DNA from: Candidatus Anaeroferrophillus wilburensis
GTDB taxonomy: Bacteria > Desulfobacterota > Anaeroferrophillalia > Anaeroferrophillales > Anaeroferrophillaceae
Assembly: GCA_016934315.1 (NCBI GenBank)
Contig: JAFGSY010000022.1
Span: 1 to 52,077, forward strand
Reading direction: 5' to 3'
Length of the DNA: 52,077 nt
Part shown: positions 38,059-47,666 of the stretch, one piece after another
Numbering within the stretch: the stretch's first letter is position 1
Layout: every line of letters starts with the position of its first letter
The notes under the pieces: generated by a model
What the model was told of the DNA's origin: nothing
Database searches by the model: none
Seen by the model: only the letters and a program-made list of their open reading frames with translations
Program-made: the position numbers and the translations under genes

Positions 38059-38074
38059 TGGAACGCTTTATGCA
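38059..38074 (+). promoter_or_regulatory. sigma-54-type promoter (-24/-12)
   Basis: TGGAACGCTTTATGCA matches the TGGCACG-N4-TTGCA consensus with two mismatches and has the obligatory GG and GC exactly 10 nt apart (GG 38060-38061, GC 38072-38073). Transcription would start near 38085, about 60 nt before the first gene of the redox operon, whose ribosome-binding site is AAGGAGGTG. The window encodes an NtrC-type activator next to the same operon, which makes the match meaningful. Confidence 0.65.
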
Positions 38075-38145: not shown

Positions 38146-38394
38146 ATGAAAAACACATTTCGCATCATCACACTGTTTGCCATCCTGCATGCAAATTCGG
38201 TTTTTGCCGCAAGCGGAGCCGGGGGTGGGGGGATCGGCCTCATCGGGTGGATTTTTATCGGATTTCTGGCGGTTATCATCACCTTTCAGTTTGTCCCGGC
38301 CGCATTTATGTTTGTATCCATGATGGCGGCTATTTTTGGGAAGGCGAGGAATCGTGAGAGAGTTACGGACAATGCCAAAGTCAATAACTCCTGA
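38146..38394 (+). CDS. small exported membrane protein 1 (paralogue of the one at 38900)
   Basis: An 82-residue protein with a signal peptide (residues 1-21, ending SVFA) and one strong transmembrane helix (about 28-55, with FQFVPAAF), then a short basic tail. The pattern G-x-LA-x-I-x3-Q-x-VPA-x4-V-x8-GK is shared with the small protein at 38900-39142, so the two are paralogues. The start is set by AAGGAGGTG ending 5 nt upstream of the ATG. It is the first gene behind the sigma-54-type promoter. No named family recognised; likely an accessory subunit of the redox complex, by position. Confidence 0.72.
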   Translation: MKNTFRIITLFAILHANSVFAASGAGGGGIGLIGWIFIGFLAVIITFQFVPAAFMFVSMMAAIFGKARNRERVTDNAKVNNS

Positions 38395-38437: not shown

Positions 38438-38851
38438 ATGCATCTTCTTCTTATAGCCGACAGGGATGAAGAAACTCGCAGTCGGATCGTCGGATTTTTC
38501 AACGGCAGCGAGTATAAGGTCATCGAGGCGGATTCCGTGGATGTTGTTCTTCGTAATATCCTCAAAAAAGAAGCCAGTGTCATTCTGTTGGGAAGCGAGT
38601 TTGACGGGTTAAAGGCAATGGAAATAATCCCCCTCTTAAAGAGGTGCAACCAGAAATTAACCATTATCCTCATATCAAATGAGGAGTCCCTCTCCCTTAT
38701 CCGCAGATTTCGTAAAGAGGGGATATTCTATCACGCTTTAAAGCCGGTAAACGGCGATGACCGGGATGAACTCAGACAGGTGGTTCAATGTGCCTTTCAT
38801 AACACAACGGACAGAAGGCTGTCCCAAAAAAGTCCCACCGGGGAACTCTAA
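38438..38851 (+). CDS. stand-alone pseudo-receiver (response-regulator fold lacking the phospho-Asp)
   Basis: A 137-residue single receiver domain. The acidic pocket (D8, D10/E11 in ADRDEE), the switch Ser (S80 in ILISNEES) and the conserved Lys with Pro (K102 in HALKPVN) are present, but the phospho-acceptor position at the end of strand 3 reads LLGSEFDG, with Gly at 52 instead of Asp. It therefore probably cannot be phosphorylated in the standard way, and it has no output domain. GAAAGGGGG precedes ATG 38438. It lies between two paralogous small membrane proteins within the redox operon, which suggests a regulatory or scaffolding role at the complex. Confidence 0.78.
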   Translation: MHLLLIADRDEETRSRIVGFFNGSEYKVIEADSVDVVLRNILKKEASVILLGSEFDGLKAMEIIPLLKRCNQKLTIILISNEESLSLIRRFRKEGIFYHALKPVNGDDRDELRQVVQCAFHNTTDRRLSQKSPTGEL

Positions 38852-39163: not shown

Positions 39164-39340
39164 ATGACTGGATTTTTTGCGACCATCGGCGAAGCCGTAC
39201 AGATTGGCACCTTGGTGGAGTACTACGATTATATCAAGGCTGTTGAATACCTTATCTGCATCGGGTTTCTGGTGGCATTCCCCATATTTTACAAGAACGT
39301 AATCATGCACGATAATGATGCCGGGAAACGGGACAGATAG
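39164..39340 (+). CDS. 58-residue membrane protein (HmcD-like position)
   Basis: Short gene with ATG 39164, preceded by AAAGGAGAG, ending at TAG 39338-39340. The product MTGFFATIGEAVQ... has one transmembrane helix (YLICIGFLVAFPIFY) and a charged tail HDNDAGKRDR. Small proteins of about 50 residues with one helix occur in Hmc-type complexes (HmcD), and the position just before the cytochrome and Fe-S genes fits. Similarity is by size and context only. Confidence 0.7.
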   Translation: MTGFFATIGEAVQIGTLVEYYDYIKAVEYLICIGFLVAFPIFYKNVIMHDNDAGKRDR

Positions 39341-39371
39341 AATGTCTGGACATGTGAGGAGGGATGAACGA

Positions 39372-39899
39372 ATGAAAAGTAGAAAAAGATGGATACTGGG
39401 AGGGATGATCGTCGCACTGGTTTTTCTTGCCGCTCCGGCTTTCGGTACTGCTGATGAGCCACCGGCATCCGTGCTGTTAGACTCCCTCTCCCACCTTTAC
39501 TATGGGGCTGACTTCAACCATGATCAGCATGTGGAGATCGCCGACGATTGTTCGGTCTGCCACCATCATCGGTTCGGAAAAGGTGTCGAGGATGAACAAT
39601 GTGCCAGATGCCATGCCGATAGTGAAGGAACATCTGCCGTGGTCTGCAGGGATTGCCATGTCCAAGAGCCGTTTACCGGCCAGCATATCGGGAAGATGGA
39701 GGCTGATCCGAATCGCTACCATATCGACATGACGGGTCTGAAAGGCGCCTATCATCTGAGGTGCTTCACCTGCCATGCTACGATGGGAGCACCAACAGCG
39801 TGCGAGGATTGCCACGAAATGACTGACGAAGGCGAACAATTCTACCATTCCGGCAAGTATGCGCCGGTGGGAGGTGGAGTTGGCGGTCGACATGAGTAG
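39372..39899 (+). CDS. periplasmic pentaheme cytochrome c
   Basis: A 175-residue exported protein with a signal peptide (about 1-25, ending PAFG) and five CxxCH haem-binding motifs: C60-H64, C77-H81, C92-H96, C131-H135 and C144-H148. Further histidines (HDQH near 50-53 and the HHH run at 64-66) can be distal ligands, as in class III cytochromes c3. It is larger than a tetraheme c3 by one haem. ATG 39372 follows AGGAGG with 9 nt spacing. It should exchange electrons with the periplasmic ferredoxin encoded next and with soluble periplasmic cytochromes. Confidence 0.88.
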   Translation: MKSRKRWILGGMIVALVFLAAPAFGTADEPPASVLLDSLSHLYYGADFNHDQHVEIADDCSVCHHHRFGKGVEDEQCARCHADSEGTSAVVCRDCHVQEPFTGQHIGKMEADPNRYHIDMTGLKGAYHLRCFTCHATMGAPTACEDCHEMTDEGEQFYHSGKYAPVGGGVGGRHE

Positions 39900-39950: not shown

Positions 39951-40895
39951 ATGAATGGTATAAGCCGGAGAGGATTCTTCAAGGTGGTCGCTGGTGGCAG
40001 CGCCTTGGCGTTGGCCCCCAAGAAAAGCGCCTTTGGTATGGCGGAGTTTGATGGTTATCCGGAGAGCATGGGAGTATTGGTAGACCTTACACGCTGCATC
40101 GGTTGCCGGACCTGCGAGGCAGCGTGCAACAGGGAGCATGGCCTTCCTGAGCCCGACCTTCCCTTTAACGACCTCTCGGTTTTCGACCAGACCTTCCATG
40201 GAGGAACCCAGAAACGCAGAACGGATGATGGTGCATTCACCGTCGTCAACCGGTATGACACTAAAACTGCTGGAGGACCGGTCTATCGGAAAATCCAGTG
40301 CAACCATTGCAAGGAACCGGCCTGCCTGACCTCATGTTTTGTCAGCGCTTACAAGAAAACAAAAGAGGGGGCGGTTATTTATAACCCCGATGTCTGTGTC
40401 GGTTGCAGAATGTGCATGGTCGCCTGTCCCTTCGGGATCCCGGCATACTCCTATGACAGCGCTTTGCATCCAGAAGTAATAAAATGTAACTTCTGCTACG
40501 ACAACCGGCTGAAACATGGAAAACCGCCCGCGTGTGTGGAGGCTTGCCCCCAGGAGGCCCTGACGTTCGGCCACCGGAACACCCTTGTCAAGACCGCCCA
40601 TGAACGCATTCGGGCAAACCCCGAAAAGTATGTCGACCATGTGTATGGGGAAACAGAGGTTGGCGGCACATCCTGGATGTACCTGTCAGGCGTTCCCTTT
40701 GATCAGCTTGGCTTCAACACCAGCCTGCAGCACCATCCGATCCTGGATAACACCAAGAGTTTCCTTGGCATCGTACCGATGGTTCTGGGTATCTGGCCTG
40801 CCATGTTCATGGGATTTCATCTCCTGGCAACCGGGGGAAAGAAAGAGGAAGAGAACAAAAAGTCTCAACATAGAGGGGAGGTGCACGAAGAATGA
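39951..40895 (+). CDS. Tat-exported four-cluster ferredoxin, HybA/HmcB-like
   Basis: A 314-residue iron-sulfur protein with a Tat signal (SRRGFFKVVAGGSALAL) and four cysteine groups that can each hold a [4Fe-4S] cluster: CIGCRTCEAAC, CNHCKEPACLTSC, CVGCRMCMVAC and CNFC with CVEAC. A C-terminal hydrophobic helix (FLGIVPMVLGIWPAMFMGF) anchors it, as in HybA. It should relay electrons between the cytochrome and the membrane partner. AAAGGAGG precedes the ATG. The stop overlaps the next gene start by 4 nt. No molybdenum or hydrogenase catalytic subunit accompanies it. Confidence 0.9.
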   Translation: MNGISRRGFFKVVAGGSALALAPKKSAFGMAEFDGYPESMGVLVDLTRCIGCRTCEAACNREHGLPEPDLPFNDLSVFDQTFHGGTQKRRTDDGAFTVVNRYDTKTAGGPVYRKIQCNHCKEPACLTSCFVSAYKKTKEGAVIYNPDVCVGCRMCMVACPFGIPAYSYDSALHPEVIKCNFCYDNRLKHGKPPACVEACPQEALTFGHRNTLVKTAHERIRANPEKYVDHVYGETEVGGTSWMYLSGVPFDQLGFNTSLQHHPILDNTKSFLGIVPMVLGIWPAMFMGFHLLATGGKKEEENKKSQHRGEVHEE

Positions 40896-42241
40896 ACCGA
40901 CTTATGGAAAAAGGCTTTAGGCCGATTGACTCTCTGAACGATCCGGATAATGGTCACCGGTGGAGTTTATCGCAGAAACTGCTGCTGGGATTATCTCCTA
41001 GAGATTACTTCCGGCAGGTTCTGCGCAACCCCTTCAACTGGGTATTATTTCTGATCTTTGCCATCGGCCTGCCTCTTATTGTCTACCGGTACGCCAACGG
41101 CCTGGGCAGCGTTATGCACGGCAGCTGCGATTATCCATGGGGACTTTTCCTGGGCTTCGGGCTTTTCTGCATGGTCCCCCTTTCCGCCTCGGGGTTTCTC
41201 CTCGGCACTGCGGTGGAGCTGTTCGGCCAGAAAAAATTCAAACCAATCCTGAATCTGGCGTTGCTCAACGGCTTGTTGGGATATTTCTTTGCGGTTGTCA
41301 ACCTTCTGGTGGACCTTGGTTGTCCATGGCGGCTCTATTACCCCATGTTTGTCTCCTGGGGTACAGCAGCCGTTCTCTTTCTGGTTGGCTGGCATGTTGC
41401 GACCTACCTTTCTGTGCAGATAATGGAAGTTTCCGAGGCATTTTTTGAATGGATCGGCTGGCCCACCGCGAAGAAATTTATCCATGCAGGAACCATCGGC
41501 CTGACGGTGGCGGGGATCATTCTTTCCACCCTCCACCAAGGAGCCCTGGGAACCCTCCTGACCTATGCGCCGGCAAAGGTGCACCCCCTTTGGTACTCAC
41601 AGGAATTTCTCTGGATATTCTACCTCTGTTCCTCGGTCTTCGCGGGTCTTTGCATGGTCATCGCAGTAAGTACCATCGTGGAAAAGACCATGGCCTGGCG
41701 CTGCAGCAGGGATTTTTTGGACCATCTCGGATCCATTACCATCGGCCTAGCCAAAGGCGCCACCATGGCCTTGGTAACCTACTTTGTTATCAAGCTTATC
41801 GGCATCGCCCATGACAACGAGTGGTCCTACCTGACCACCGGATGGGGCAGTTGGTTTATGCTGGAAATCTTTCTGGGAGTTGTACTGCCCATCATCCTGT
41901 TCTCCGTCGCTATCAGGAAAAACAGCGTCGGCCTGGTCCGGTTTACCGCTTTTCTTACCATCGTGGGTTTAATCATGAACCGGTTGAATACCGCTCTTAT
42001 CAGTTTCAACTGGAACCTCTACCCGGAGATTCCCCATCCGTACGAATTGATGATCACCATAACCATCTTTACCATGTTCATAGCAGTCTATCGCTTTATC
42101 CTCTATCGGCTGCCCATTCTGTATTCATGGAAAGCAGCACCGGAAAAGGTGCTGGTAGCCAGCCCAGTCAAAAATCGGGCACCGGTATTCATCGAAGACA
42201 GCGCGGAAGGAGCCTGGGCCCGGCCTAGTGGCCGACCCTAG
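40892..42241 (+). CDS. NrfD/HybB-like quinone-site membrane protein (HmcC/TmcC type)
   Basis: A 449-residue polytopic membrane protein of the NrfD/PsrC family with about ten helices. The STLHQGALGTLL stretch near residue 210 corresponds to the STMHQSSLGT region of HybB, near the quinone site. It probably oxidises or reduces menaquinone and exchanges electrons with the Fe-S protein. It overlaps the preceding gene (ATGA) and ends in TAG. Length exceeds HybB (392), mainly at the cytoplasmic N-terminus and at the C-terminus. Followed by a long hairpin without a T-tract. Confidence 0.9.
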   Translation: MNRLMEKGFRPIDSLNDPDNGHRWSLSQKLLLGLSPRDYFRQVLRNPFNWVLFLIFAIGLPLIVYRYANGLGSVMHGSCDYPWGLFLGFGLFCMVPLSASGFLLGTAVELFGQKKFKPILNLALLNGLLGYFFAVVNLLVDLGCPWRLYYPMFVSWGTAAVLFLVGWHVATYLSVQIMEVSEAFFEWIGWPTAKKFIHAGTIGLTVAGIILSTLHQGALGTLLTYAPAKVHPLWYSQEFLWIFYLCSSVFAGLCMVIAVSTIVEKTMAWRCSRDFLDHLGSITIGLAKGATMALVTYFVIKLIGIAHDNEWSYLTTGWGSWFMLEIFLGVVLPIILFSVAIRKNSVGLVRFTAFLTIVGLIMNRLNTALISFNWNLYPEIPHPYELMITITIFTMFIAVYRFILYRLPILYSWKAAPEKVLVASPVKNRAPVFIEDSAEGAWARPSGRP

Positions 42242-42309: not shown

Positions 42310-42341
42310 AAGGAGGGCCGCAGATGTTCAACAGCTTTGCT
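42310..42341 (+). repeat. duplicated ribosome-binding site and start codons, copy 1
   Basis: 32 bp from AAGGAGGGCCG through the ATG and five more codons (FNSFA) recur at 43163-43194 with 30 of 32 bases identical. The two copies start two unrelated proteins. Confidence 0.9.
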
Positions 42342-42938
42342 ACCCATACAAACATTCCTCATGGTGGTTTCATGCCCGGGTTGACCCCGTTTTTCCCGAC
42401 ACCCCTCGGGGCGGAATGGGTATATAATAATGGAAATCGCGTTGTCGTAAGCGATGTAAAAGAACACAATGGGGTTTGGTTTGCATGTGGCGTTGATAAC
42501 AAGCGAAATGACGGCTATACATGGTTTGAAATTGGAACAGACTATGTAAAAACAGGAACATACTGCCGCCCGGATCACATAGTGCTGTCGGATACATTTT
42601 CAGAACCCTATATCCTGAGTGGAGATCTGTCCCTCGGGTCAACCTGGGCTGGAGAGCTGAATTCGAATTGGTATCCCATAAACACGTTATCGACGGTTAC
42701 CGGTGTGGATGTGACGGTCTTCGCCAATGGAATCGCCTATGCGAGTTGCCTTCAGGTAACAGTTGAGTACGAATATCCGGAAGGGTACATGTACATGCCA
42801 TGCATGACAAGTCGTGTACTCCACTTTGCCCCTGACGTCGGCTGTGTGAAACGTACTGACAGGAAATCCGACGGAAGCACATTTATTCTCGAGCTCACGG
42901 AACACAATCTCGGCAACGGAAACCCGCTGCAACTATGA
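42324..42938 (+). CDS. unknown beta-rich protein with a borrowed N-terminus
   Basis: A 204-residue protein of unknown function. Its first codons (MFNSFA) and ribosome-binding site are a near-exact copy of those of the sensor gene at 43177, after which the sequences diverge. The body starts near FFPTPLGAEWVYNNGNR, a pattern often seen at the start of secreted beta-sandwich proteins, with several aromatic beta-strands and a C-terminal HFAPDVGCVKR. Four cysteines are present. There is no signal peptide, which suggests that the original export signal was replaced when the start region was copied. It lies between the quinone-site gene and the sensor gene, so it could be an insertion into the operon. 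Confidence 0.6.
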   Translation: MFNSFATHTNIPHGGFMPGLTPFFPTPLGAEWVYNNGNRVVVSDVKEHNGVWFACGVDNKRNDGYTWFEIGTDYVKTGTYCRPDHIVLSDTFSEPYILSGDLSLGSTWAGELNSNWYPINTLSTVTGVDVTVFANGIAYASCLQVTVEYEYPEGYMYMPCMTSRVLHFAPDVGCVKRTDRKSDGSTFILELTEHNLGNGNPLQL

Positions 42939-43162: not shown

Positions 43163-43194
43163 AAGGAGGGCCGGAAATGTTCAACAGCTTTGCT
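43163..43194 (+). repeat. duplicated ribosome-binding site and start codons, copy 2
   Basis: The probable source copy of the duplication at 42310-42341. Here it begins the diheme sensor gene, whose hydrophobic N-terminal helix continues naturally from MFNSFASKAIIPVAL. Confidence 0.9.
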
Positions 43195-44025
43195 TCCAAA
43201 GCAATCATCCCAGTGGCGCTTTCCCTGACTGGTTTTGTTATCGTCTGCAGCCTCATCCTTTATTCCTCTATTAGAGAGGGTTTTCTGAGGGACGCGGTAC
43301 GGCAGGAAACCAGCCTTGCCGATACGGTCGTCAGCTCAACCCGCTACACTATGATGACTGATGACCGGGAAAGCCTCTACCATATCATTGACAGTGTCGG
43401 AGCCCAAAAGGGAATCGAGCATCTCCGCATTTTTAATAAAGAGGGGGTTATCATGTTTTCCTCGGACCCCGGAGAGCTGAACAAGGTCGTAGACAAAACG
43501 ACAGCCGGATGCATCGAATGCCACAGCGGTCCCGAGCCTGCGGAACGTTTGGGCTCCATGCAGCTGGCAAGGCGCTTCGTCAATGGCAAGAATAACAACG
43601 TGCTGGCCATCACCGCCCCGATCTATAACGATGCACACTGTTCAGCAGGTGACTGTCACTTTCACCCCGACCACCAGAAAGTTCTTGGCACCCTGGACAT
43701 CGGCCTGTCGACCGCTTCTCTGGATAGCAGCCTGCTGGCCCTGCGCTTGAAAATGGTCGTCTTCTGCGTCATGGTTCTCATCTTATCTGTAGGCGGAATC
43801 AGTGCTCTCCTCAGGCGAAACCTGCTGGCACCAATAAACAATCTGATTGACTATGTAAGAAATGTTTCCGGGGGGAGCATGGATAATGATTTCCCCAAGG
43901 GGATCAGCGAGATCGAGACCCTTGGACAGATATACCATGAGATGGCCAAGGAAAAACATCATGCTGAAACGGAATTGATAAAAATCAGGAAAGCTGATAG
44001 CCTACCTAAAAGAAAGGGTGGCTAA
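43177..44025 (+). CDS. kinase-less diheme membrane sensor with HAMP domain
   Basis: A 282-residue membrane protein. Helix 1 (about 9-30), an extracytoplasmic domain (31-185), helix 2 (about 188-210), a HAMP domain (about 211-265), then a short tail with no kinase or methyl-accepting domain. The extracytoplasmic domain has C112-x2-C115-H116 and C155-x4-C160-H161, two c-type haem attachment motifs. It is clearly homologous to the sensor domain of the kinase at 44658-46208, with the shared stretches QKGI and the APIYN/RPIYN strand before the second haem. It probably senses redox state, and may pair with the kinase as a decoy or heterodimer partner. ATG 43177 is set by AAGGAGGG. Confidence 0.82.
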   Translation: MFNSFASKAIIPVALSLTGFVIVCSLILYSSIREGFLRDAVRQETSLADTVVSSTRYTMMTDDRESLYHIIDSVGAQKGIEHLRIFNKEGVIMFSSDPGELNKVVDKTTAGCIECHSGPEPAERLGSMQLARRFVNGKNNNVLAITAPIYNDAHCSAGDCHFHPDHQKVLGTLDIGLSTASLDSSLLALRLKMVVFCVMVLILSVGGISALLRRNLLAPINNLIDYVRNVSGGSMDNDFPKGISEIETLGQIYHEMAKEKHHAETELIKIRKADSLPKRKGG

Positions 44026-44092
44026 TTGTAGTTAAGACATGGCTCAAAAACCTTGACCTCATGGAATTTCTTGGACTAAATGGGGGTTTCGC

Positions 44093-44617
44093 GTGTTTTT
44101 ACGACGGAAACAGAGACAAAGTCATCCCCTGACTCCGGACGAAGGTATACCAAGCCCAGAGTCACGGCGCCAGGAAATTCAGGGTCGCATCCACTACCTG
44201 ACAAAACAGATACGCTACAGTAAATGGTGGATGGCCCTCTTTTTCCTCTTCAGCCTCTGTGCGGCGGTTGATTTCCGTTTTTTTCCCCCCATCTCCGAAA
44301 AAACAAGGCAGTTTCTGGGGGCATCCCCTTCTCCCACTCTCATCAGCATTGCGCTGATCGTCTATGCTTTTTCCGCCCTTATCCTCATACTGGGTCATAT
44401 GAACACCGGCTCGGTTCGCTTTCGTGGATGGTCGCACATCGGCTATCTTTCGGCATTTTATCTATTCTACTACTATACCGGCGTCCTGCGGGAGAATTTC
44501 TGGCCGGTGTTCATCGCCGGCCTGACGATTCTCGGCCTGGAGAGCTATCGGGTCTGGTCCGCCTGTAGTGAGGCCATCAGGATGGAAAAAGAGATCCTTG
44601 CGTCAGTGAAAAAGTAA
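44093..44617 (+). CDS. membrane protein of unknown function at the end of the redox operon
   Basis: A 174-residue protein with GTG start, a basic coiled N-terminus (about 25-42) and four hydrophobic segments (about 46-63, 84-101, 111-127 and 133-148), then an amphipathic C-terminal helix. No family recognised. It follows the sensor gene by 67 nt. TmcD of Desulfovibrio also occupies the end of its operon, but I see no sequence reason to equate them. Confidence 0.6.
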   Translation: MFLRRKQRQSHPLTPDEGIPSPESRRQEIQGRIHYLTKQIRYSKWWMALFFLFSLCAAVDFRFFPPISEKTRQFLGASPSPTLISIALIVYAFSALILILGHMNTGSVRFRGWSHIGYLSAFYLFYYYTGVLRENFWPVFIAGLTILGLESYRVWSACSEAIRMEKEILASVKK

Positions 44618-44657
44618 TGGGGTTTGCTGCAGGTCCATCAAACAAGAGATTTGATGC
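44618..44657. terminator. weak hairpin between convergent genes
   Basis: CATCAAA (44636-44642) and TTTGATG (44650-44656) form a 7-bp stem with loop CAAGAGA between the plus-strand membrane protein gene and the minus-strand kinase gene. No T-run follows. A bidirectional stop is possible. Confidence 0.35.
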
Positions 44658-46208
44658 TCAGATGGGTAGAATAATCGTAAAAGCAGTGCCTTTTTCCAGC
44701 TTGCTGTCAACCTTGATCTCCCCGCCATGGGACTGGATAATGCCGTAGGAAACCGAAAGTCCCAGACCGGTGCCTTTGTGTCCCTTGGTGCTGAAAAAAG
44801 GATCGAAAAGTTTTTCAATATTTTCCGCTGGGATGCCGCAGCCGGTATCCTCGATTTGCACGTAGATGTGCTCCCCTGACGCATGCATCCCTGTCCTTAT
44901 GAACAGCTCCCCTCCCTGCGGCATAGCTTGACTGGCATTGATCATCATATTGATGAGGACCTGTTCAATCTGGGAAGCGTCAATCAAGGTTTCCGGAAGG
45001 TCGGGATCATACTCCTTGACAATCTCGATGTCTCTGAAATCAGCATTGTGTTCAATCAGGGCGGTAGTTCGGTCAATGGCTTTGCTGATTGGCTGTAGTG
45101 CCTTCTGCGAATCAGAGACCCTGGCGAAATCCAGCAACTCCTTGACGATCTTCGAACAGCGCCTTGCTTCGTGAATTACCGTCCGGCAATCCTCCACCAG
45201 ACCATCTTCCAATCGCGGATCCTCGGCAATAAAAGAGGCATGGATCATAATCCCGGTCAGGGGATTATTGAGCTCATGGGCGATCCCTGCGACCAGTTCT
45301 CCGAGAGACGCGAGTTTTTCCGAGCGGACCAGAACGGACTGCATCGCTTTTATCTCGCGCGTTCGCTCCTCCACCTTGGTTTCCAGCGTAGCCGCCCATT
45401 CATCCCGTTCCTCCCGGTTTTTTTTCAACTTACCGGTCATATCGTTGAACGCCTCAGCAAGTTCCCCCAATTCGTCACCGGGTACTGATTTGATCAGGCA
45501 CCAATTTCCCTTGCCAACCGCCCGGGTGTGCTCCAGCAGCGTATGAACCGGCTGGATGATCAGCCTCTTGGTAAGCAGGGTCAGGCAGAGAGAGATGGAA
45601 AGAATCAAAAAAATGATCTGGATAATGGTATTGTTGCGATAGCTGCGGATGATCGTCAGCATAGGATCGGCGGAAATAGTAATGTCCAAAAGGCCCAGAA
45701 AACGGGTATTTTCAGAGTGGGCGTGGCATGCACCCGTCCAGCAGGTTTTTTCGTTATAGATCGGCCTGATCATGCCGAGAACCGTTTTCCCCCGACTGTC
45801 AATAAACATCCTGCTGCGGGCCAAGGGGGAGGGGTCATCCAGGGACATTTCATCATTATGGCAGACCATACATGCCGGAGCCCGCTTTTTGTCGAGAGTA
45901 GTGCCGATTTCGGCACTTCGGGTGGAAAAGGCCAACATTCCCTCGCGGTTGAGGATTCTGATACGCCCGATCCCCTTCTGTTTGCCCATCTCGCCGATGG
46001 TAACCTGGATCTGATTCCGGTCATTTTCCAGCATTTGATGAAAGACAGCTCTGAACATCGTTTCACTCAGATGCTCAAGATCTGACACCGCACTCTGCAG
46101 AAAGGCATATTTGAGGGTGGTTATATTGAAATAACCGAAGAGAGCCGAGGTGAACAAGAGGACGATTCCCGTAATCAGCGAAATCTGAACGATCAGTTTC
46201 AGACGCAT
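44658..46208 (-). CDS. diheme-sensing histidine kinase
   Basis: A 516-residue sensor kinase. Helix 1 (about 7-27), an extracytoplasmic domain with C113-x2-C116-H117 and C156-x4-C161-H162, helix 2 (about 194-213), HAMP (about 214-266), a coiled coil to about 300, HisKA with H311 in VAGIAHELNNP, and a HATPase domain with DTGCGIP and GHKGTGLGLS. The two haem motifs make a direct redox or gas sensor likely. It follows the sigma-54 activator gene by 48 nt on the same strand. I infer that it controls that activator in response to the state of the periplasmic cytochrome pool. No Cache or PAS family can be named with certainty. Confidence 0.88.
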   Translation of the reverse strand: MRLKLIVQISLITGIVLLFTSALFGYFNITTLKYAFLQSAVSDLEHLSETMFRAVFHQMLENDRNQIQVTIGEMGKQKGIGRIRILNREGMLAFSTRSAEIGTTLDKKRAPACMVCHNDEMSLDDPSPLARSRMFIDSRGKTVLGMIRPIYNEKTCWTGACHAHSENTRFLGLLDITISADPMLTIIRSYRNNTIIQIIFLILSISLCLTLLTKRLIIQPVHTLLEHTRAVGKGNWCLIKSVPGDELGELAEAFNDMTGKLKKNREERDEWAATLETKVEERTREIKAMQSVLVRSEKLASLGELVAGIAHELNNPLTGIMIHASFIAEDPRLEDGLVEDCRTVIHEARRCSKIVKELLDFARVSDSQKALQPISKAIDRTTALIEHNADFRDIEIVKEYDPDLPETLIDASQIEQVLINMMINASQAMPQGGELFIRTGMHASGEHIYVQIEDTGCGIPAENIEKLFDPFFSTKGHKGTGLGLSVSYGIIQSHGGEIKVDSKLEKGTAFTIILPI

Positions 46209-46256: not shown

Positions 46257-47666
46257 CTACTCGGAATGATCTCTCACAGAAATCCCCTGTTTTTTCAACA
46301 TTGCCTGAAAATTGGGCCGCAACATCCCCACATCCCGGGCGGCCCGGGTGACGTTCCAGTTGCTGCGTTCAAGGGCCTGGATAAGGAATGCCCGTTCCAC
46401 AGGTCCAACCGCCTTTTCCCTGACTTTTCTCTTGGCCTCCTTCAGGCTCTCTGCACTCTGGGGAATGGACTCGGTCATAGTTTCAGGAAGACCGTCGGTG
46501 GTGGCCTCAATCTCGAGGTCCTCAGGTTGGATGAGTTTGCTATGGGTAAGCACAACCGCTCTTTCAATAATATTTTCCAACTCCCTGACGTTTCCGGTGA
46601 ACGGATGCTGCGCCAGGATGGACATGGCGGCCGGCGACACTCCATGGATCTCCTTGTCGATCTCTCCGGAGAATTTTTTCAGGAAATGACCAATAAGCAG
46701 GGGAAGATCTCCTTCTCGCTCAATCAGGGGAGGTAGATGAACAGGGATGATGTTCAGTCTGAAAAAGAGATCCTTGCGAAAAAGCCCCTCATCAACCAGA
46801 TCACTCAGGTCTCTGTTGGTAGCGGTTATGAGACGGATGTCAATGGAAATGGGCTTGGTCCCCCCGATGGGGGTTATGGTAAATTCCTGAAGAACCCGCA
46901 ACAGTTTTCCCTGGGTGGCCAGACTGATGTTGGAAATCTCATCCAAAAAGAGAGTTCCGCCGTCAGCTACTTTGAACAGGCCCATCTTCGTCTGTACCGC
47001 CCCGGTAAAAGAGCCCTTGACATGGCCGAACAGTTCACTTTCCAGCAGGTTCTCCACCAATGATGTGCAGTCAACGGCAACAAAAGGCTTATCACAACGC
47101 ATGCTGTTTTCATGAATGGCCCTGGCAACCAGTTCCTTACCCGTACCGCTCTGACCGGTGATCAGGACCGTACTATCAGTGGGAGCGACCTGCTTGATTC
47201 TGTTATAAACCCTTTGCATCGCTTCGCTCTCGCCGACAAAAATATCAAAACCGGCTTGGCTTGGTCCAACTGCTGGATGACCACGCTGCAGCTGAACGGT
47301 TCGCTGTTCCAGCGCTTTTTCGACCATTTCGATCATCTGCTCGGGGGTAAAAGGCTTGGAAATATAATCGAAAGCGCCATTTTTCATCGCATCAACGGCG
47401 GTATCAACGGTGGAATACCCGGTGATAATGATGACCGGCACATCAGGCTGCAGGATTTTAATGGCCTTAAGGACCTCTATGCCATCCATTCCCGGCATTT
47501 TAAGATCCGTAATGACGATGTTGAACGGCGTTTTCTGGAGCTTTTCGATCGCCCCAAAACCGCTTTCAGACGCCTCCGCCTGGTAGCCCCTGCCCTCCAT
47601 GACCCGACAGAGCCCTCTCCTGATTACCGCTTCATCGTCAACTATAAGAACTCTTACCCCTGTCAT
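46257..47666 (-). CDS. NtrC-type sigma-54-dependent response regulator
   Basis: A 469-residue activator. Receiver domain with D54 (VITDLKMPGMDG) and the switch Lys in SKPFTP; AAA+ domain with Walker A GQSGTGKE (171-178), the sigma-54 contact loop GSFTGA (218-223, a Ser variant of GAFTGA) and Walker B GGTLFLDE (237-243); a C-terminal Fis-type HTH (NWNVTRAARDVGMLRPNFQAMLKK). AAGGAGTAGGAT precedes the ATG. Its partner kinase is next in the operon, and a sigma-54-type promoter at 38059 fronts the adjacent redox operon, the obvious target. Confidence 0.92.
   Translation of the reverse strand: MTGVRVLIVDDEAVIRRGLCRVMEGRGYQAEASESGFGAIEKLQKTPFNIVITDLKMPGMDGIEVLKAIKILQPDVPVIIITGYSTVDTAVDAMKNGAFDYISKPFTPEQMIEMVEKALEQRTVQLQRGHPAVGPSQAGFDIFVGESEAMQRVYNRIKQVAPTDSTVLITGQSGTGKELVARAIHENSMRCDKPFVAVDCTSLVENLLESELFGHVKGSFTGAVQTKMGLFKVADGGTLFLDEISNISLATQGKLLRVLQEFTITPIGGTKPISIDIRLITATNRDLSDLVDEGLFRKDLFFRLNIIPVHLPPLIEREGDLPLLIGHFLKKFSGEIDKEIHGVSPAAMSILAQHPFTGNVRELENIIERAVVLTHSKLIQPEDLEIEATTDGLPETMTESIPQSAESLKEAKRKVREKAVGPVERAFLIQALERSNWNVTRAARDVGMLRPNFQAMLKKQGISVRDHSE

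Follow-up and report, generated by a model that had tools for sequence, protein, structure and literature searches.

A 52,077-nucleotide stretch of the Candidatus Anaeroferrophillus wilburensis genome (hereafter the window) encodes two membrane proteins that share a two-haem, Cache-type sensor domain. One is a histidine kinase, the other carries no kinase, and their phylogeny traces both to a single old duplication. The kinase-less gene belongs to a respiratory operon; the kinase gene and that of an NtrC-type regulator are convergent to this operon, just past its CbcE-like gene. We consider it probable that the kinase is a redox sensor that would switch the operon on, and that the kinase-less copy would be a membrane-bound component of the complex so regulated. 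The genes and the candidate promoter discussed here are as follows.

38059-38074, + strand: candidate sigma-54 -24/-12 promoter TGGAACGCTTTATGCA, upstream of the respiratory operon
38146-38394, + strand: conserved small membrane protein of 82 aa, first gene past the promoter (GSU0597 position)
38438-38851, + strand: stand-alone receiver-domain protein (GSU0596 position), apparently without the usual phospho-acceptor Asp
39315-39899, + strand: five-haem c-type cytochrome with a hydrophobic N-terminal segment
39951-40895, + strand: HmcB/CbcV-like iron-sulfur subunit
40892-42241, + strand: HmcC/CbcW-like NrfD-type integral membrane subunit
43177-44025, + strand: kinase-less two-haem Cache protein, CbcD-like (GSU0591 counterpart), 282 aa by direct translation
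44093-44617, + strand: CbcE-like membrane protein, after the kinase-less gene in most loci
44658-46208, - strand: two-haem sensor histidine kinase (GSU0599 counterpart), 516 aa by direct translation
46257-47666, - strand: sigma-54-dependent response regulator, NtrC/AtoC-type, with the receiver Asp in VITDLKMPGMDG and a GSFTGA loop

Hydrophobic helices occupy residues 10-28 and 194-212 of the kinase-less protein and residues 5-23 and 194-212 of the kinase; in each protein both haem motifs lie between the helices, in a region predicted to be periplasmic. The motifs are C112/C115/H116 (CxxCH) and C155/C160/H161 (Cx4CH) in the kinase-less protein, and C113/C116/H117 (CxxCH) and C156/C161/H162 (Cx4CH) in the kinase. 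QKGI stands at residues 77-80 of both, and PIYN at 148-151 and 149-152, respectively; on translation, the motif residues, their near-identical spacing and both flanking words prove to be as the preliminary description gave them. Identity between the sensor regions is 27-30%, and in a search of the genome each matches the other at E = 1e-31. Beyond the second helix the kinase has an intact HAMP (DELGEL), a HisKA domain with H311 and a HATPase_c domain. The other protein was originally said to end after a HAMP domain: an output domain is indeed lacking, but what follows TM2 is a degenerate HAMP, at 21.3 bits against a Pfam cut-off of 25. Cytochrome c assembly genes are present in the genome, and the motifs predict covalent attachment of two haems to each protein.

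Conservation of these residues is extensive. A match to the sensor domain (E up to 1e-6) occurs in 186 of 395 genomes of the phylum, and among 87 two-haem homologues taken from fetched loci all 87 keep the CxxCH together with a second Cx(3-5)CH, a count somewhat favoured by the gathering profile, which contains the motifs; the close orthologues (66-84% identity) are independent of that effect. The second motif is Cx4CH in 83 homologues, Cx3CH in two and Cx5CH in two, and the spacing between motifs ranges from 40 to 61 residues, mostly 42-43. Loss of the haem residues, which the preliminary description had singled out as evidence against haem binding, was looked for in close homologues and not found; an origin of the motifs by chance or misalignment is ruled out by the same conservation. 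Only four His or Met positions are near-invariant across the 87, namely H116, H161, H163 and M59, and four is the number of axial ligands that two haems need. Met59 is invariant (100%), and His163, two residues past the second motif, is found in 85 (98%), with Pro in its place in one orthologue (L049). Three more distant relatives with a single haem (L076, L041 and L036) retain Met59 as well as the second site but have neither the first motif nor the CHxH His.

The fold suggests which of the two haem sites is the older. AlphaFold2 models of both domains have Cache topology, with a mean pLDDT of 76 and haem loops below 50, and the kinase-less model matched the sensor domains of WalK, CitA and DctB as well as GSU0935 in Foldseek. 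A search of the PDB with the family profile returned GSU0935 (E 4e-5) and GSU0582 (E 5e-4). In the GSU0935 alignment (chain 3b42, with residue numbering derived by equating His144 with the His of the CxxCH), Met59 falls on Met26, which is Met60 of GSU0935, and motif 2 falls on CQSCH. Met60 of GSU0582 and GSU0935 ligates the reduced haem and is released upon oxidation, the midpoint potentials being -156 mV and -251 mV, respectively; both proteins take NO and CO with loss of Met60 (PMC8396549). Given this correspondence of both motif 2 and Met59 to the GSU0935 haem site, motif 2 would be the ancestral sensory haem and motif 1 an addition. His163 may be the ligand of haem 1, an assignment drawn from conservation, since the haem-bearing loops are of low confidence in both models. 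The two-haem c-type sensor fold put forward earlier is in this way backed by motif conservation, by the modelled Cache fold and by the alignment to the GSU0935 haem site.

Within the Cache superfamily, two known haem-domain families approach this domain without containing it. GSU0582 and GSU0935 (PF21563, PDB 3B47/3B42) share the Cache-type fold, the position of haem motif 2 and a Met ligand on the N-terminal helix, but they are single-haem chemotaxis receptors with neither the earlier-loop CxxCH nor the CHxH; the PF21563 profile (Mcp40H-20_sensor) scores the window proteins at 21.0 and 18.5 bits, under its 27-bit cut-off, and is weak in most relatives. The sCache_heme family (DUF3365/Tll0287, PF11845) likewise binds haem c covalently in its periplasmic Cache domain and includes output-less TM-domain-TM-HAMP proteins, but it has one CXXCH only. 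Membership of PF11845 was considered and rejected, as its profile matches neither window protein, yet matches three others in the genome. A 2026 preprint assigns NO sensing to single-haem Cache domains (sCache_heme) where these are fused to signalling modules, an output-less HAMP protein among them; a term search of it did not find the two-haem form. Curated Pfam holds no model for the two-haem domain as such, the sole match above cut-off being a marginal, generic Cache one, that of the kinase-less protein to sCache_3_2 (28.5 bits; cut-off 28.4). The three PF11845 matches elsewhere in the genome are separate single-haem sensor domains of the Tll0287 type, at C14:57910, C21:93697 and C21:7784 (L140-L142).

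In a maximum-likelihood tree of 90 domains, the 25 kinase-less proteins form one clade (support 100/100) whose sister is a clade of 27 kinases that includes the partner kinases (100/99); joint support is 93/93, and other two-haem kinases fall outside. The kinase is present in 25 of 25 genomes with the kinase-less gene, the kinase of one (G285) not being in the tree, and the only genomes in which a sister-clade kinase has no detected kinase-less partner are two drafts, G375 (81% complete) and G176. The pair is spread over many families of Desulfobacterota. In 20 genomes, that of the window included, the two genes lie within a few kb of each other, mostly surrounded by an oxidoreductase or multihaem cytochromes, a CbcE-like gene and an NtrC-type regulator.

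The respiratory genes of the module vary between loci. In relatives the kinase-less gene usually shares its operon with the CbcE-like gene and those of a quinone-cytochrome oxidoreductase; in L049, L052 and L055-L058, however, a membrane protein and a cytochrome with seven haems take the place of the oxidoreductase, in most cases accompanied by a cytochrome with 9 or 12 haems. This membrane protein is a cytochrome b561 in the two loci tested (L049 and L052), L055-L058 have the order CbcA(7)/CbcB/CbcC(12)/CbcD, and L061 has both the five-haem/FeS/NrfD set and a 12-haem cytochrome. Among loci of other two-haem kinases, 16 of the 39 fetched adjoin HmcB/HmcC-like genes, most with an NtrC-type regulator. 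Within the window itself, a 49-nt direct repeat (84%) at 42310-42358 and 43163-43211 places before orf42324 a ribosome-binding site and a set of first codons copied from the kinase-less gene; orf42324 is a frame of 204 aa with no Pfam match and no second copy in the genome. It is absent from the examined relatives of the same order and so has the look of a recent insertion that duplicated the start region.

The adjacent NtrC/AtoC-type regulator is probably the partner of the kinase, and a conserved promoter points to its target. In 13 of 15 loci (shuffle p < 0.05 in each of the 13) a sigma-54 site lies approximately 340-450 bases 5' of the receiver gene, with the conserved small gene (38146) between the two. 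A consensus scan of the whole window found 21 sites against 33 expected, and for that reason only the phylogenetically conserved site at 38059 was used; a search directly 5' of the five-haem cytochrome gene found no such site. On the simplest interpretation, the kinase and the regulator would together control the operon that holds the kinase-less gene. The stand-alone receiver (38438-38851), conserved in most module loci, apparently has Gly/Ser at the position expected for the phospho-acceptor Asp (VILLGSEFDG) and may on that account be a pseudo-receiver.

Sensors of this two-haem kind are already known by sequence. In papers that cite Londer et al. 2006, GSU0591 and GSU0599 are named as the signal transducers of Geobacter sulfurreducens that carry two c-type haem motifs, CX2-4CH, and GSU0591 has been seen in proteomes as 'cytochrome c'. 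As CbcD, GSU0591 is described as a HAMP protein with 2 haems and a putative subunit of the menaquinol oxidoreductase Cbc5 (CbcABCDE), with the gene order cbcA (7 haems), cbcB, cbcC/omcQ (12), cbcD (HAMP, 2 haems), cbcE, the arrangement seen in the loci with a seven-haem cytochrome above. The corresponding Geobacter cluster encodes CbcBA, which supports respiration near -0.2 V. Matched by gene order, haem counts and published descriptions, the window pair can be taken as the counterparts of GSU0591 and GSU0599: in both organisms CX2-4CH occurs twice between two TM helices, one protein is a HAMP protein (in Geobacter within the cbcEDCBA operon) and the other a histidine kinase, and the pair accompanies a cbc-type operon with a small protein, a receiver and a sigma-54 regulator. 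They differ in the oxidoreductase, which is of the five-haem cytochrome/FeS/NrfD type (Cbc3/Hmc-like) in the window and CbcABC in Geobacter. As in Cbc5, the CbcD-like and CbcE-like genes are adjacent and lie 3' of a membrane oxidoreductase and a multihaem cytochrome, but the catalytic subunits are of another type, and CbcA, CbcB and CbcC are not encoded alongside. The kinase-less protein is, like CbcD, a two-haem protein beside CbcE that contains a HAMP, albeit a degenerate one. With the Hmc complex and Cbc3 (CbcVWX) the window shares the HmcB-like FeS and HmcC-like NrfD subunits, and its cytochrome has five haems, as CbcX does; the two subunits score under the NCBIfam cut-offs, at 401 of 420 for HmcB and 355 of 550 for HmcC, and no 16-haem HmcA adjoins them. 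That a Cbc3/Hmc-type complex stands in the window where Geobacter has Cbc5 shows the module to be portable. BccR, the sigma-54 regulator of the Geobacter gene set, which we take to be GSU0598, is said to have been found by Joshi et al. in 2021 to be required for cbcBA.

In the mechanism that we favour, haem 2 of the kinase (C156/C161/H162) would occupy the ancestral single-haem site with Met59 as its sixth ligand and, by analogy with GSU0935 and GSU0582, would change its ligation as the redox state changes. The added group would be haem 1 (C113/C116/H117, probably with His164), which may feed electrons to haem 2 or tune it. The state of the haems would be transmitted through TM2 and HAMP to the kinase and on by phosphotransfer to the neighbouring sigma-54 regulator, which in turn would act at its presumed target, the promoter at 38059, to switch on the quinone-cytochrome oxidoreductase operon. 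The kinase-less paralogue, itself a product of that operon, would be a CbcD-like protein, anchored in the membrane and bearing two haems, that serves the oxidoreductase as a subunit or a companion.

How the kinase-less protein has evolved bears on what it may do instead. Compared domain by domain with the kinase in 21 matched genomes, it is the better conserved of the two in TM1 (64% vs 50%), in the sensor domain (57% vs 50%) and in TM2 (61% vs 46%), and the less conserved in HAMP (34% vs 52% identity); its tail is 24% identical, and all 21 orthologues have lost AS2 of the HAMP as well as the DExG motif. Such a profile suggests that the protein makes contacts within the membrane and the periplasm but does not signal through HAMP. 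The preliminary description had proposed that the copy modulates the kinase by heterodimerisation, and as a co-receptor it could tune signalling with feedback from the amount of operon product. The sister relationship and near-perfect co-occurrence of the two proteins fit such a role, as does the correlation of their evolutionary distances (rho 0.85), although that is expected from shared ancestry and is no evidence of contact, since both proteins follow the species tree. Decay of the HAMP while the membrane helices stayed well conserved, together with the unconserved tail, argues against a HAMP heterodimer; moreover, the gene sits in the oxidoreductase operon and outside the kinase operon, its Geobacter counterpart is CbcD, and the copies are only 27% identical. 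Modulation through HAMP pairing is in consequence unsupported by these comparisons, the heterodimer proposal as a whole has weak support, and we regard a co-receptor that pairs with the kinase as distinctly unlikely, although the two proteins may yet touch through their periplasmic or transmembrane parts.

For the kinase, we infer redox sensing, which sequence alone does not separate from gas sensing. NO (or CO) might displace Met59 on haem 2 and so alter kinase activity, much as Met60 is lost when these gases bind GSU0582 and GSU0935, and a single-haem sCache_heme protein of Pseudomonas azotoformans, with TM helices and HAMP, binds NO tightly. A gas sensor would have no need, however, of a second haem with its own conserved His, and its neighbours here are quinone-cytochrome oxidoreductases, with no NO reductase or nitrosative stress gene seen among the identified genes; we find this reading quite improbable. 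Doubtful in the extreme is a division of labour in which the kinase-less protein is an electron-transfer cytochrome subunit only and the kinase senses something else, such as a small molecule bound in the Cache pocket, the haems being structural. CbcD is described as a cytochrome subunit of Cbc5, and the Cache fold family usually binds small ligands, but Met59, the redox-switch ligand, is strictly conserved in kinases that otherwise share little.

A further reading can be envisioned, speculative and, we think, unlikely: the respiratory complex would bear a copy of the two-haem sensor domain of its own regulator, and the kinase would gauge the redox state of the complex, or the flux through it, by touching that copy or by exchanging electrons with it directly. 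The copy would then act as a built-in comparator, common to different oxidoreductase types across the phylum. Metal-, electrode- or partner-respiring bacteria switch inner-membrane quinol oxidases by redox potential, and an identified sensor for this switch was not found in the literature searched. A candidate is now provided by the two-haem kinase, encoded beside a sigma-54 regulator and associated with a conserved promoter before an oxidase operon, and the sister of this kinase is a CbcD-like protein, of the kind annotated as a cytochrome subunit. Since oxidases of more than one type come with the module, it should be usable to predict electron-transfer operons under redox control. The shared descent of CbcD-like proteins and the kinase, the ligand assignment, the portability across oxidoreductases and the conserved sigma-54 promoter are reported here from sequence comparison and were not found in the literature searched.

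Several variants of the pair were also encountered. In L075 (6325-7290) the kinase-less gene is split into frames of 193 and 101 aa beside an intact kinase, either because the gene is broken or because the assembly is wrong there. L097, L098 and L099 have a second kinase-less two-haem paralogue (224-290 aa), encoded near the gene for a 1079-aa membrane protein and away from any oxidoreductase. Two-haem kinases of the same kind are also found in Acidobacteriota, Bryobacterales included (L070, L071 and L072).
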